DNA of 35,575 nucleotides from Pseudomonadota bacterium (lineage in GTDB: Bacteria; Pseudomonadota; Gammaproteobacteria; Steroidobacterales; Steroidobacteraceae): contig JAJZSQ010000020.1 in assembly GCA_021849615.1 (NCBI GenBank), forward strand, positions 1 through 35,575, written 5' to 3'. Below, in pieces: positions 29,234 to 35,575 of the stretch (position 1 is its first letter; every line of letters begins with the position of its first letter). The notes beneath the pieces were generated by a model, which did no database searches, had not been told where the DNA came from, and saw only the letters and a program-made list of their open reading frames with translations. Position numbers and translations under genes: made by a program.

Positions 29234-30979
29234 ATGTTCAAATTTAACCGCTTCTCTAACCGCGCCAGCGAAGGCCCCTCGCAATCGGTCAGTGCGCTTG
29301 AGCTGGCGGATCTGCGGGGCCAGGTCGCGGCGTTCGGTAAATCGCAGGCGGTGATCGAGTTCGGAATGGATGGCACGATCCTCGCAGCCAACGACAACTT
29401 TCTGCAGGCCGTCGGCTACACGCTCGATGAGATCAAGGGCAAGCATCATCGTATTCTGGTCGATCCAGCCTACGCCGCGAGCCCCGATTACGTGCAATTC
29501 TGGGCGAAACTCGCGCGCGGGGAATTTGACGCCGGACAGTACCGGCGGTTTGGCAAGGCGGGGCGAGAGGTCTGGCTGCAGGCCACCTACAATCCGATCC
29601 TCGATCCCAGCGGCAAACCCTTCAAGGTGGTCAAGGTCTGCGCGGATGTCACCCGCCAAAAACTCGAGACGGCCGACTCCGAAGGTAAGCTGCGGGCAAT
29701 CGACAAAGTGCAGGCCATCATCGAGTTCGATCTCGATGGCACCGTCCGCACGGCCAATCAGAACTTCCTGCGTGTCGTCGGTTATTCGTTGGACGAAATT
29801 CGCGGCAAACATCACCGGATATTCGTCGACTCTCAGTATGCGGCGAGCCCGGAGTACGACGCCTTCTGGGCAAAGCTGCGTCGCGGCGAATTCGATGCAG
29901 CCGAATACCGACGTATAGCCAAGGGGGGGCGTGAGGTCTGGCTGCAGGCCTCGTACAACCCGGTCGTCGATGCAAGCGGCCGGCCGATCAAGGTCGTGAA
30001 GTTCGCCACCGACATCACCGAGCAGAAGCGCACGACGCAGCAGCTCTCAGAATTGGTTGCGCAAATTCGCGTCGCGGTCTCCGAGGTCACCTCGAGCGCT
30101 AAAGACATTGCCGATGGCAACACCAGTCTCAGCCAGCGCGTCGAGGAGCAGGCGGCGAGTCTGGAGGAGACGGCGAGCTCGATGGAGGAGATGACAGCGA
30201 CGGTGAAGCAGAACTCCGACAACGCAGCGGCCGCGAAACAATTGGCGAGTGCGGCGCGCGAGAGCGCGGAAAAGGGCGGGGCGGTCGTAACCCAGGCCGT
30301 CGATGCGATGCAGGCCATAGATTCCGCCAGCCGCAAGATCTCCGACATCATCGGCGTGATCGATGAGATTGCCTTCCAGACCAATCTGCTGGCTTTGAAT
30401 GCCGCCGTCGAGGCGGCGCGCGCCGGGGAGCAGGGGCGCGGCTTTGCAGTCGTCGCCTCCGAGGTGCGCAATCTGGCCGGTCGCTCAGCGTCGGCGGCCA
30501 AGGAAATCAAGGCGCTGATTCAGGACAGCAGTGCGAAAGTCGCCGACGGCTCGCGCCTGGTCTCCCAGTCGGGCGATGGCCTGCAGGAGATCATCGGATC
30601 GGTGAAGAAGGTCACCGACATCGTTGCGGAGATCGCCGCCGCATCGGTCGAGCAGAGCAGCGGAATCGATCAGATCGCGCGCGCTGTGGCGCAGATGAAC
30701 GAGGTGACGCAGCAGAATGCGGCACTCGTGGAGGAGGCATCGGCCGCGAGCGAGTCGATCCTGCAGCAGGCGAAGGATCTGGCCGCGGCGGTCGGCGGGG
30801 ACAGCAGTGAGCCGCAGACCGAGCAGACGAGCCGCAAGGCGCCCAAAGCGCCCTTGCAGTCCGCCCGCAAAGCGCCGCCGCTGCAGGTCGTGCGCAAGCC
30901 CGGCGCGAGAAGCGCCACCGCTGCAGGCGGTGCGAAGGTTGCCGCCGGGGGTGGCGATTCGGAGTGGTCAGAGTTCTAG
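29234..30979 (+). CDS. Soluble methyl-accepting chemotaxis protein with tandem PAS domains (BdlA-like layout)
   Basis: The 581-residue protein has no membrane segment. Two closely similar PAS domains (about 30-140 and 150-262) share GKHHRI, WAKLxRGEFDA and [12 protein letters not shown], showing an internal duplication. The signalling domain (about 265-525) includes the CheA/CheW contact tip [20 protein letters not shown] and [15 protein letters not shown]. The Ala/Lys-rich tail ends DSEWSEF, an xWxxF pattern like the CheR-tethering pentapeptide of high-abundance receptors. It probably senses redox, oxygen or a cytosolic ligand and reports to a CheA array; a BdlA-like link to biofilm dispersal is possible given the c-di-GMP genes nearby. 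No che genes are in the window. Confidence 0.93.
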
Positions 30980-31040: not shown

Positions 31041-32499
31041 CCTGTAGAGAAAATCAGGTAGATTGCCGCGCCGAGGCTGCCTCAGGCGCCCTGCAGGGCG
31101 AACATTCGCCTGAGGTTCCAGCTCATCGTCACCAGGCTCCACTCGCCTCGGGCGCTCTCGAGTCCGCGCAGCCGGAACTGTCGAAATCCCATGACCGATT
31201 TGATGATCCCGAAGACCGGCTCGGGTGTCTGCTTACGCAAGGCGTAGAGCTTCCGTCCCGCGGGCGTCTTCAGGCGGTATCTCATCTTCTCCATCGCCGT
31301 TGCCGATTCCGGTGGCGCTTGGGCGCTGCCGCAAAGCGTTGCCGCCAAGTCTTATGATGGCGTTCGCGCTTGAGCGCGATCAGCGGCTCGATGCCCGCCG
31401 TCGCACAGCCCTCAACGTTCTTCTCACTCGCGTAGCCGCTGTCGGCGAGGATGCGCCGCGTGCGCCCCAGCTCCTTCGGCAGCGCCTTGAGCTTCTGGAT
31501 CATCGGGGCGAGCTGCTCCTTGTCGTTCGCCGCCTGCGTGACCTCGAGGGCCACCACCAACATGCTGCCTGCGGCCACCACCGCCTGGGCGTTGTAGCAC
31601 TGATCAAATCCGCCGCCGGCCACCGGCATGATGCGCGACTCCTCGTCCGTGAGGTTGCTCTGCTCCTTCGCGTCCACTCCACCGCTCGGGGGTGCCGGTG
31701 GGCGGCCACCGGGCTTCTTGCCCGTGCGGCGCTCCTGCTCCTCGCGCGCGGCGATCTTCGCCCGATACTCGGCCTGCTCCCGCTCAGCAACCCGAGCTCG
31801 GATCTTCTCCTTCGCCTCGGCGATCGCCGCCAATCGCGCCTCGCGCCGCTCGAGCTCCTCCGGGATCGACATCCCGTCGGGAACCTCCCGCGCATCGGCT
31901 CGCTCGGAGAGGGCAAGCAGTTGCTGCACTTCCTTCTTCAGCCGCTTCTCGAGCTTCTCGGCGTGTCCGTAGGACAGAGCGCTGTGCCGGCTGGCGTTCG
32001 CGTGCACCTTGGTGCCATCGAGCGCCACCGTACCCATCTTCAGCATCCCCATCGTGCGCGCCACCTTCAGCACCTCAACGAACAGAGGCTCGATGTGCTT
32101 CAGGAAGCGCTTGCGGAAATGCGCGATGGTGTCGTGATCAGGATGCTCGTTACCGGCAATGAAGCGAAAGGCCACCGAGTCGTACGTCGCCCGCTCCACA
32201 GCTCGGCTCGAGAACACCCCTGTCGCATAGCCATACACCAGCAACCCGAGCAGCATCGCCGGGTGGTACGAGGCCGAACTCGAGCCTCGGTACGTCTTCT
32301 CCAGCTCCGCGAGGTCCAGCCCCTCGACCACCTCGACGACAAAGCGCCAGGTGCCGCTGCGGCAGCCACTCCTCTACTGAGGGCGGCAGCAGAAAGCCAG
32401 TGTCACGGTTGATCGGGCGGAAATTGCTCATGCTCACCCTGTTCTGCCGAGGAGGCCCGCTGTGATTATCCCCTATCTACCCTCGTCAAGTCCGACAGG
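31041..32499 (-). mobile_element. IS1182-type insertion sequence, inactivated
   Basis: The boundaries are tentative. They rest on CCTGT at 31041-31045 facing its inverse ACAGG at 32495-32499, with GGTAGAT-like sequence 11-13 nt further inside on both sides (imperfect terminal repeats). The element holds one transposase reading frame broken in two places. It begins about 60 bp after the chemoreceptor stop. No convincing target-site duplication could be read. Confidence 0.5.
31082..32431 (-). pseudogene. IS1182-family transposase with two frameshifts
   Basis: Three successive frames reconstruct one transposase of about 450 residues. Piece one starts MSNFRPINRDTGFLLPPSVE and runs to QRHLA. A two-base loss near 32345 shifts the frame to VVEGLDLAELEKTYRG, which continues through ALDGTKVHANAS (first Asp) and ILADSGYASEKN (second Asp). 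A second frameshift near 31310-31325 leads to ESATAMEKMRYRLKTPAGR and KQTPEPVFGIIKSVMG (catalytic Glu region) up to the stop. All DDE positions survive, so the damage is recent, but no full-length protein can be made without two recoding events. Confidence 0.88.
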
Positions 32500-32665
32500 C
32501 TGCTAGGACCAGTCCATCGTCGGATGGTCGGCGCGCGGCAGCGACCGTTATTCTGCAATCGCCGTTGCCTTTGGCCCGGCTCGCAGTGGCCGAAGTGTTC
32601 AATGGACCGATGGGACCCAACTATGGCACGCTACGCTTTAGAGTCCCCCATCGGGGATCGGTAAA

Positions 32666-32687
32666 CCCCTCGCCTTTAGGCGACGGG
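32666..32687. repeat. Left-end hairpin of the IS200-like element
   Basis: The sequence contains TCGCC-TTTA-GGCGA with flanking CCC/GGG, forming an imperfect hairpin 28 nt before the tnpA start. The core CCCTCGCCTTTAGGC is repeated at 33199-33213 after the gene, as expected for paired subterminal structures recognised by IS200/IS605 TnpA. Confidence 0.65.
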
Positions 32688-32715
32688 ACAGTCGGGCGGA
32701 TATAGCATCCGGGGT

Positions 32716-33144
32716 ATGAAAGACTACAAGAGCAGCAGCCACGCGGTATGGGACTGCAAATACCACCTGGTGTGGATTTCGAAGTACCGGTACTCGGCCT
32801 TGGTAGGAGACGTCGGGCTGCGGGCCAGAGAGCTCTTGCGGGAGATTGCTCGGAGTCTGGAGATGACGATCTACGCCGGGACCCTCAATCGGGACCCCGT
32901 GCATGTGCTCGTCTCGCTACCGCCGCAGGTGTCGGTGTCCCGAGCCGTACAATTTCTGAAGGGGAAGAGCTCGCATAGACTGCTGAGTGAATTTGCGGCG
33001 CTGAGAAAGCGGTACTGGGGCCAGCATCTGTGGGCACGGGGTTACTGGGTGGCGTCGAGCGGAAACGTGACCGACGAGGTGTGGCAGAAATACATCGAGA
33101 ATCAAGTGCCTGAGGAGCCTGATGACAACTTCAAAATCGTGTGA
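32716..33144 (+). CDS. tnpA: IS200-like TnpA transposase with altered HUH motif (PVH)
   Basis: The 142-residue product is a single-domain Y1 transposase of the IS200/IS605 type: CKYHLVWISKYRYSALVGD, then SRAVQFLKGKSSHRLLSEF, then WARGYWVASSGNVTDEVWQK. The nucleophile Tyr126 in KYIENQ is present. The metal-binding HUH motif, normally DHVH, reads Asp60-Pro61-Val62-His63: the first histidine is lost through a CAC-to-CCC type change. Metal binding and DNA cleavage should be severely reduced. No tnpB partner is present, as in classic IS200. Length and reading frame are otherwise normal. Confidence 0.88.
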   Translation: MKDYKSSSHAVWDCKYHLVWISKYRYSALVGDVGLRARELLREIARSLEMTIYAGTLNRDPVHVLVSLPPQVSVSRAVQFLKGKSSHRLLSEFAALRKRYWGQHLWARGYWVASSGNVTDEVWQKYIENQVPEEPDDNFKIV

Positions 33145-33313: not shown

Positions 33314-35575
33314 ATGCCTCAACTAGCGCAACCGCTGGCCTGGACGGACTCCATGGCGACGCACATTGCCATGGTCGATGAGCAGCATCAGGAGCTGCTC
33401 GATATTTTCAACCGGATCGCCCTGGCGCAGGCCCAGGACGCCCCCCGCGAGACGATCATCACCCTCCTCGATGAGCTGGTGGCGTACACCCGCTATCACT
33501 TCCGCGAGGAGGAGAAGCTGATGCTGAAGTGGGCGGTGGATGCCACCCACCGCATGATGCACCTGCGGGCCCATGAGAGTTTTCGGGGATTTCTGCAACA
33601 GGCACACCGGGTGCTGCTCGAGAGCAGCGCGGAGCTCACCGAGGACGTGAGCGTCGATTTGCAGGCGTTTCTCGCCCAGTGGTTGCTGCACCACATCATG
33701 GATGTCGACCGGCAGCTGGCGGGCCAGATCCGCGCCCGCCAGGGCGGCCAAACGCCCGGGGAATCCGAGCCGCAGACGGCGACGGCAACGATCGCAGACG
33801 CCAGGAACGAGCTGATCGCCACCGTCACCCAGCTCACGGACCAGCTCGGCCGGCGCACTTTCGATCTGCTCACCCAGCGCCAGCAGCTGCTCGATGCGCA
33901 GGCGCTGTACCGCTCGCTGCTGCACTGTGGCGATGTGCTGATTCAGAGCCGGGACGAGCAGGGCATGCTCGAGAGCCTGTGCGCGAAGCTGGTGCAGGAC
34001 ACGCCGTTTAACACCGCGTGGATTGGCCGGCCCGACTCCTCGCAACGGTTTACCGTGCTGGCCTTCTCGGGCGAAGGCGCCGAGCAAGCCGGCCAGAGCC
34101 GAGTCACTCTGGTCGACTCCGAAAGCGTGCCGGTGGTGCACCGGGCATGGCTCACCGCGCAACCGGTCGTCTGCAACGATACCCTCGCGGATCCGGCCAT
34201 ACAGCCTTATCAGGATTCCTTCCGGACTCACCGCTGGCACAGCGTGGTTGCGATTCCCGTCATGCGCAGCAACGCGATGTGGGCCATTCTCGCACTGACC
34301 GCGCCGCGCACCGGCGCCTTCGATGCACCAACGCTCGAGGTCTGTGCGCGTCTTGCAGCACTGTTGGGGCACGGTCTCGACGAGTTCGACCTGAAGCACC
34401 GCATCCGCAACAGGCAGGTGCAGGATGCGCGCATCGCCCGCACGGATCTGCTGACCGATCTGCCGAACCGATTGGCGCTCGAGGAATACCTGCCACAGGC
34501 CATCGCGCGCGCTCGCCGGCACGGCACCACGTTGGCCGTCGGTGTGATCGATCTCGATGACTTCAAGCCCGTCAACGACCAATTAGGTCATGAAGCCGGA
34601 GATCAACTGCTGCGCACCATTGCGCGCGGTCTGCTGCACTGGCTGCGCGAGTCGGATTTCATCGCCCGCATGGGAGGCGATGAGTTCGTGGTCGTACTGG
34701 AGGATCTCGAGGCCCATCAAGCACTCGCGCAGCTCAGTGCGGCACTTGAGCGACTGCACAGGGCAGTCGAGACTCCCTTCCAGTTAGGTGCTCGCGAACG
34801 CGCCTCGATCGACATGACCATGGGAGTGGCGCTGTATCCGATGGATGGAGAAGATGCGGACCTGCTATTGCGACAGGCCGATGCGGCGATGTATCAGGCC
34901 AAGCAGGGCAAGCGCAACCGCACCCGCTGGTGGCGCATCGGGGTTACGACCAGTCCGGAGAAGATCGCCGAGGTGTCGTTTGACGCATTCGGCCAGGAGG
35001 CGCGGGAGTTCATGCAGGCGCTGGCGCCGCATCTGGCGGGTGTGGCCGAGCATTTTTCCGAGTCGTTCTACCGCGAGCTGCATTCGCATCCGGAAACCGC
35101 CGCCATTCTCAAATGCCTTTCGCCGGAGGAGTTAAAGTCGCTCGCACGCAAACAGGCTGACCACGTTCGCGAACTGCTCAATGCCGAGGCGACCAGGCAG
35201 CACGTGCACGCCCGGGCTGAGCAGCTCGGTGTCGTGCATGCCCTGATCGGGGTGTCGGCTGCCTGGATGACCCGCGTCATGGGTCTTTACCGGGATCTGC
35301 TGCGCACTCACCTGGATGCGGCGCTGCTCACCGCCCGGACGCGCTACCGGACGCTGCGCGCCGCGGAGGCCCGACTGCAGCTGGATGTCGAGAGCCAGCT
35401 GCAGGCAATTCAGTCCGTGCTCGATCAATACCAGACTCTGCTGTCGCGGCCGATGGACGGTCGGGCGCTCGCGGCAGATTGGATGCAGAGCGAGCTGAAC
35501 GCGGTGGCGGATTTACCCGGCGTACGCGCAGCGGTGGTGTTCCGGCCCGATGCCCAGAACCGGCTGGTCATCGAG
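33314..35575 (+). CDS. Bacteriohemerythrin-GAF-GGDEF-globin-sensor protein, diguanylate cyclase (3' end outside window)
   Basis: 754 codons are visible with no stop. Residues 1-140 are a bacteriohemerythrin with the complete di-iron ligand set at the right spacing: His25, His62, Glu66, His83, His87, His127 and Asp132. A GAF-like domain (about 205-365) follows. The GGDEF domain (about 370-540) has intact GGDEF at 454-458 and an RxxD inhibitory site (RESD) at the canonical distance. Residues about 550-680 resemble a globin-coupled-sensor/protoglobin fold, including SHPETAAIL, a candidate proximal His617 in RKQADHVREL, and VVHALIGVSAAWM. Another sensory or output domain seems to begin at the edge. 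The predicted role is oxygen- or NO-regulated c-di-GMP synthesis in the cytosol. The globin assignment is less certain than the hemerythrin and GGDEF. Confidence 0.87.
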   Translation, partial: MPQLAQPLAWTDSMATHIAMVDEQHQELLDIFNRIALAQAQDAPRETIITLLDELVAYTRYHFREEEKLMLKWAVDATHRMMHLRAHESFRGFLQQAHRVLLESSAELTEDVSVDLQAFLAQWLLHHIMDVDRQLAGQIRARQGGQTPGESEPQTATATIADARNELIATVTQLTDQLGRRTFDLLTQRQQLLDAQALYRSLLHCGDVLIQSRDEQGMLESLCAKLVQDTPFNTAWIGRPDSSQRFTVLAFSGEGAEQAGQSRVTLVDSESVPVVHRAWLTAQPVVCNDTLADPAIQPYQDSFRTHRWHSVVAIPVMRSNAMWAILALTAPRTGAFDAPTLEVCARLAALLGHGLDEFDLKHRIRNRQVQDARIARTDLLTDLPNRLALEEYLPQAIARARRHGTTLAVGVIDLDDFKPVNDQLGHEAGDQLLRTIARGLLHWLRESDFIARMGGDEFVVVLEDLEAHQALAQLSAALERLHRAVETPFQLGARERASIDMTMGVALYPMDGEDADLLLRQADAAMYQAKQGKRNRTRWWRIGVTTSPEKIAEVSFDAFGQEAREFMQALAPHLAGVAEHFSESFYRELHSHPETAAILKCLSPEELKSLARKQADHVRELLNAEATRQHVHARAEQLGVVHALIGVSAAWMTRVMGLYRDLLRTHLDAALLTARTRYRTLRAAEARLQLDVESQLQAIQSVLDQYQTLLSRPMDGRALAADWMQSELNAVADLPGVRAAVVFRPDAQNRLVIE

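Follow-up and report, generated by a model that had tools for sequence, protein, structure and literature searches.

A standing question for hybrid GGDEF-EAL proteins is how one chain chooses between making and breaking c-di-GMP. The two hemerythrin-containing c-di-GMP enzymes that have been studied are presented in PMC9388753 as redox switches that are active when diferrous. On the figures given there, VcBhr-DGC works at 0.77 per min when diferrous and at 0.073 per min when diferric, a 10-fold difference, and the Ferrovum Bhr-HD-GYP, at 6.2 per min in the reduced form, shows no activity otherwise. According to the same 2022 review a hemerythrin-EAL phosphodiesterase had yet to be discovered, and a 2008 census reports one hemerythrin protein with both GGDEF and EAL (PMC2556348). 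In DcpG, a globin GGDEF-EAL protein, the Fe(II)-O2 form favors the EAL domain and hydrolysis and the Fe(II)-NO form favors GGDEF and synthesis, as reported in PMC10882959. Globin sensors differ in sign, O2 activating most and inhibiting PccGCS in Table 3 of PMC8846402, and entries of that table place hemerythrin and globin sensors in separate proteins. Protoglobin with GGDEF-EAL, in some cases with CZB, is known in Acidithiobacillus according to PMC6416229. Among open-licence PMC papers we found no description of a hemerythrin and a globin in one protein. We have analyzed a stretch of DNA of 35,575 nucleotides (the window) at the end of which lies a gene combining the two.

The gene and the complete protein

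The open reading frame occupies positions 33314-35575 of the window (+ strand). It comprises 754 codons, and is still open at the end of contig C51, which is the window itself. The preliminary description had proposed extending the contig, and contig C163 of the same genome provides the extension. Its first 502 bases overlap the window end with 495 identities, after which it continues in frame to a stop codon, giving a joined protein of ~1220 aa. The complete protein has the order hemerythrin - GAF - GGDEF - protoglobin - GAF - EAL - short C-terminal domain. The second GAF begins at about aa 728, its first part lying in the window (35495-35575, + strand) and the remainder on C163. By Pfam the globin is completed on C163, where it is followed by a GAF matched weakly (0.00078) and by an EAL domain (PF00563, 1.2e-53) at about aa 887-1118 with eight of eight catalytic residues, followed by the C-terminal domain. 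The second GAF, EAL and C-terminal domains were absent from the preliminary description as the contig ends.

The two parts of the gene lie on different contigs and their 502-base overlap contains seven mismatches, as might be expected if an assembly error had produced a chimera, either by fusing the hemerythrin and globin parts or by attaching the wrong EAL continuation. Yet many independent assemblies show the same order within one contig. The closest relative (L032, 83% identity over the window part) has the entire 1220-residue protein on a single contig, with Pfam matches in the order Hemerythrin, GAF, GGDEF, Protoglobin, EAL and two GAF stretches. A paralogue on contig C101 of the same genome has an identical domain order. 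Since intact relatives and the paralogue share this order we have rejected an assembly artefact, which is extremely improbable, and the domain anatomy is nearly certain. No membrane or signal feature is present among the domains found, so the protein is probably cytosolic.

The first GAF (aa 213-355; 33950-34378, + strand; Pfam GAF_2, 1.5e-16) is followed by the GGDEF diguanylate cyclase domain (aa 376-536; 34439-34921, + strand; PF00990, 1.8e-45). The GGDEF motif itself is located at aa 454-458 (34673-34687, + strand). Five residues ahead of it is an inhibitory I-site with the sequence RESD (aa 445-448, R445xxD448; 34646-34657, + strand), so that the motif and its inhibitory site are both intact, as first described. 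The Pfam matches to Hemerythrin, GAF_2, GGDEF and Protoglobin each exceed the curated cut-off. By its domains and catalytic residues the protein is a hybrid GGDEF-EAL enzyme, for which both activities are predicted.

The C-terminal domain is helical, with a length of ~84 aa and a conserved, almost invariant Cys and HxxxH pair (L032:9409-9660; the end of the C163 frame, L112 to 1900), and a third metal site in this Cys/His domain is possible. The L032 tail was modeled by AlphaFold2 with a pLDDT of 94.9. The tail matched no PDB chain at E ≤ 0.001, and a second look gave a best Z of 7.2 with unrelated helical bundles, so that it may yet share a known fold. In the tail alignment (A2, 43 of 66 tails) the CZB profile PF13682 matches five tails at E ≤ 1, the closest relative L032 not being among them, and the C163 frame, in which the tail of the window gene was scanned as part of the whole, has no CZB match at E ≤ 0.01. 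A longer, CZB-like tail takes the place of the C-terminal domain in L096, L100, L101 and L110.

The genome has three Hemerythrin matches, two of them within dual-sensor genes, and three protoglobin matches, all in dual-sensor genes (two genes, one split between C51 and C163). There are 27 GGDEF matches and two PilZ matches. The third Hemerythrin match is the C-terminal domain of a P-type ATPase-like frame (L002:1-1911, labeled from its sequence), which resembles the P1B-5 ATPases named in PMC9388753. Two further GGDEF-containing frames, of 769 and 924 aa, are present on the same contig (window 17456-17923 and 19739-20224, − strand). Immediately upstream of the dual-sensor gene are two transposase genes (window 31282-33144; DDE_Tnp_1 on the − strand and IS200-like Y1_Tnp on the + strand), and beyond these is a PAS-PAS-MCP chemoreceptor (29234-30979). 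Downstream on C163 (L112:1993-4793) a gene for the polyphosphate kinase PPK2 appears to be broken (partial match, 2.7e-23) and stands beside a DUF4158 frame; an intact PPK2 (5.1e-73) neighbors the gene in L032. We compared the flanking open reading frames of 18 loci for an operon partner, and found neighbors common to small subsets only.

The hemerythrin and globin domains

The hemerythrin domain occupies aa 17-136 (33362-33721, + strand; Pfam 2.7e-12; NCBIfam bact_hemeryth 5.7e-24). It scores 47.7 bits with PF01814 (cut-off 25.3), 84.7 with NF033749 (cut-off 84) and 84.2 with TIGR02481 (cut-off 51.75). Seven di-iron ligands are present, i.e. H25, H62, E66, H83, H87, H127 and D132, comprising five His, one Glu and one Asp. 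The segment aligns with solved bacteriohemerythrins in the PDB with a best E of 6.6e-9 and the ligands in register, confirming the canonical spacing reported in the preliminary description. The ligand set is therefore complete, and iron binding with O2 or redox chemistry is predicted.

The protoglobin domain covers aa 558-694 (34985-35395, + strand). It matches the Protoglobin profile PF11563 at 2.5e-13 with a score of 50.8 bits (cut-off 25), and the profile matches 70 of 72 family segments at E ≤ 0.01. These segments form the globin alignment (A1), which holds 72 of 80 listed segments, the L005 copy being replaced by the window, and from which L028, L060, L068, L078, L086, L090, L092 and L109 were dropped. 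The family profile built on the 72 segments finds three globin sensors in the PDB at E ≤ 0.001 (8h17, 2w31 and HemAT 1or4). Alignment with these places H642 on the conserved histidine and Y586 on the tyrosine of the conserved FY pair, which is F585-Y586 here. His642 (35237-35239, + strand) is thus the candidate proximal heme ligand and Tyr586 (35069-35071, + strand) the candidate distal tyrosine. In DosC the proximal histidine is H98, and Y43 is the residue that stabilizes O2 (PMC5549716). The proximal histidine is kept in 72 of 73 rows, the one row without it being L092, so that its apparent invariance in the 72-segment alignment is biased by the omission of L092.

A globin model calculated by AlphaFold2 from the 72 sequences has a pLDDT of 88.9. 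Its best matches in the PDB by Foldseek are the globin domains of AfGcHK, DosC, Thermosynechococcus, BpeGReg and GsGCS. Using VIA-align we obtained Z = 17.1 with AfGcHK (rmsd 2.3 over 144) and Z = 17.1 with DosC (rmsd 2.2 over 139). In general the globins of globin-coupled sensors give Z = 16-17, compared to 12-13 for protoglobins proper and other globins. The structural matches also include the N-terminal domain of RsbR (2bnl, Z = 12.1), which is not known to bind heme. The window globin might similarly be a structural domain or bind some other ligand, leaving the hemerythrin as the sole sensor, and the tyrosine is indeed lost in two of the 26 rows that have both sensors and in nine of the 47 others. 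We nevertheless consider a heme-free globin most unlikely. The proximal histidine is present in all 26 dual-sensor rows and in 46 of the others, and the top structural matches are heme globins of globin-coupled sensors that lie well above RsbR.

By profile and modeled fold the segment is a real protoglobin, and heme binding is predicted. The globin-like segment with a candidate proximal histidine that the preliminary description placed after the GGDEF (residues 550-680) thus has both the profile match and the fold of a globin, and its claim that one protein has both sensors holds, with the metal ligands of each complete. The globin is internal and follows the GGDEF, unlike the N-terminal placement that is usual for globin-coupled sensors. 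We have therefore classed it as a protoglobin domain in a hybrid enzyme, and not as a classical N-terminal globin-coupled sensor.

Two sensor modules and two enzyme domains

The protein consists of two tandem sensor-GAF-enzyme modules, hemerythrin-GAF-GGDEF and protoglobin-GAF-EAL, and both modules are also found alone. Free globin-GAF-EAL proteins without GGDEF occur in the same genus (L024, L026, L029 and L031 by Pfam). Free-standing genes of this kind are present in five genomes of the genus (L143:1381-3564 on the − strand, where the frame begins shortly ahead of the globin, L021, L024, L026 and L029), four of which were scanned with Pfam and L021 judged from its sequence. In a globin-EAL tree that omitted four long-branched rows (L115, L117, L122 and L123) these proteins form a clade of their own, separated from their closest neighbors by ~2.15 changes per column, so they did not arise by recent breakage of the fused gene. 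L057:3650-5260 encodes a 537-residue hemerythrin-GAF-GGDEF protein, directly upstream and on the same strand as a GAF-PAS-GAF-GGDEF-globin-GAF-EAL gene (L057:5224-9909). This gene pair is a split version of the parts of the fused protein.

The globin lies between GGDEF and EAL, and ahead of the second GAF, so the natural pairing is of hemerythrin with GGDEF and of globin with EAL. Reasoning from VcBhr-DGC, Bhr-HD-GYP and DcpG, and assigning each sensor to an enzyme by the order of domains, we propose a push-pull mechanism in this tandem-module hybrid enzyme, to which we give about an even chance of being correct. The di-iron site would sense redox state or low O2 and mainly gate the cyclase, the reduced form being active. 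The heme globin would sense O2 or NO and mainly gate the phosphodiesterase, with the O2 form active. In air, synthesis would be turned off and hydrolysis on together, lowering c-di-GMP; under reducing conditions or low O2 the level of c-di-GMP would rise, and NO may raise it too. The result would be a sharpened sessile/motile switch within one polypeptide.

The preliminary description had both sensors tuning a single cyclase, which could give two oxygen thresholds for synthesis. The two sensors do flank the GGDEF in the primary sequence, but the protein continues into GAF-EAL with all the catalytic residues of a phosphodiesterase, and the free globin-GAF-EAL proteins indicate that the globin works without any GGDEF. 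Finding the EAL half on C163 led us to reject a single cyclase under two sensors. The presence of the EAL makes two oxygen thresholds less probable than control of synthesis and hydrolysis in opposite directions, and we regard them as very unlikely.

Residue-by-residue comparison covered 73 of 80 non-redundant rows, the other seven, from the search of 369 genomes described below, not being in that alignment. The window entered as the joined protein. Hemerythrin and globin occur together in 26 rows, and 47 lack hemerythrin. The hemerythrin ligands are complete in 21 of the 26 dual-sensor rows, and the other five are cut before H25 and complete from H62 onward. All 26 have the proximal histidine and 24 the tyrosine. 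The EAL residues are complete in 25, the remaining one being cut before the last two. The GGDEF is intact in 21 rows and the I-site RxxD in 24. In the five altered rows the motif is DGDEF (2), GGDEL (2) or GDDEF (1), and in these relatives (L012, L013, L016, L044 and L045) the EAL and metal ligands are intact. Among the 47 rows without hemerythrin the proximal histidine is kept in 46, the tyrosine in 38 and the EAL in 47. Truncated dual-sensor genes without EAL (L048, L060 and L078) are in neither the 73-row nor the 80-row count. These counts point to constraint on the EAL and on each of the metal sites, and to a less strict one on the GGDEF.

A GGDEF that is degenerate in five of 26 rows where the EAL stays intact may serve the EAL allosterically. 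This leads to the main rival to the push-pull mechanism, in which the protein would be mainly a phosphodiesterase with both sensors acting on the EAL, and the GGDEF would either bind GTP in a regulatory role or be weakly active as a cyclase. Hemerythrin can couple to EAL too, since hemerythrin-GAF-GGDEF-EAL proteins without globin exist in L056 (copy L114) and L116. Against a single output, the GGDEF and I-site are retained in most dual-sensor rows, the window protein included, and the free hemerythrin-GAF-GGDEF protein of L057 has no EAL. We consider a single output possible but rather unlikely. A fuller form of the push-pull proposal is more tentative than its core. Here the di-iron and heme sites would read different facets (redox or low O2, and O2 or NO) and drive opposite catalytic domains as a self-contained switch, in which a third metal site may also take part. 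Such a switch would have a window or hysteresis unlike that of any single-sensor enzyme.

The dual-sensor gene is present in 14 of 37 genomes of the genus, its own included, many of these genomes being incomplete. Among the matches listed from 369 genomes spread over the class, none outside its own genome spans the whole query, in keeping with the uncommon architecture first suggested. A plasmid search with the whole protein gave partial matches only, none covering 80%. Both sensors occur, for instance, in bins of Rhodanobacter, Lysobacteraceae and Thiomonas, and in an Oleiagrimonas gene that is truncated. We constructed a tree of the GGDEF-globin-EAL core from 80 rows (12 of 92 were dropped as >97% identical, L118 and L028 having been left out beforehand). 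The hemerythrin label requires at least five changes, four of them forced by well-supported branches, and in one 20-row clade that includes the window all have hemerythrin. Our trees were built by a quick method, have only SH-aLRT values as support, and contain several long branches. The pairing of hemerythrin and globin has thus a history of several gains or losses, which are indistinguishable here, and one clade in which it is stable.

Comparison with known systems

With a separate, spectroscopically distinguishable sensor ahead of each half, the choice between synthesis and hydrolysis becomes directly testable, as the di-iron and heme sites can each be set, and read, without the other. To judge by the 2022 review (PMC9388753), this would be the first hemerythrin-linked EAL phosphodiesterase to be studied.

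Vibrio cholerae Bhr-DGC similarly has an N-terminal bacteriohemerythrin upstream of a GGDEF, but GAF, globin and EAL do not figure in its description in PMC9388753, whereas a second sensor and a phosphodiesterase follow in the window protein. DcpG of Paenibacillus dendritiformis shares the globin sensor, GGDEF and EAL, and switches gas-selectively between two activities; the account of it in PMC10882959 makes no mention of a hemerythrin. The Protoglobin-GGDEF-EAL-CZB proteins of Acidithiobacillus (e.g. AFE_1712), which are from acidophiles, likewise combine Protoglobin with GGDEF-EAL, and have a C-terminal metal-binding domain to which that of the window protein may correspond. The survey in PMC6416229 makes no mention of hemerythrin, and writes the globin first.

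The window globin has the globin fold, proximal histidine and FY pair in common with E. coli DosC, BpeGReg and AfGcHK, but the globin of those proteins is N-terminal and that of the window protein internal, between GGDEF and EAL. The Bhr-HD-GYP of Ferrovum sp. PN-J185, an acid-mine-drainage iron oxidizer, is also a hemerythrin-controlled c-di-GMP phosphodiesterase, but with HD-GYP in place of EAL and without a globin. Relatives such as Ferrovum and Thiomonas inhabit acidic waters rich in iron, and attachment there may depend on O2 and iron redox. Hybrid GGDEF-EAL sensor enzymes are known, and what appears to be new here, judging from the open-licence papers searched, is the pairing of a hemerythrin and a globin sensor in one of them.
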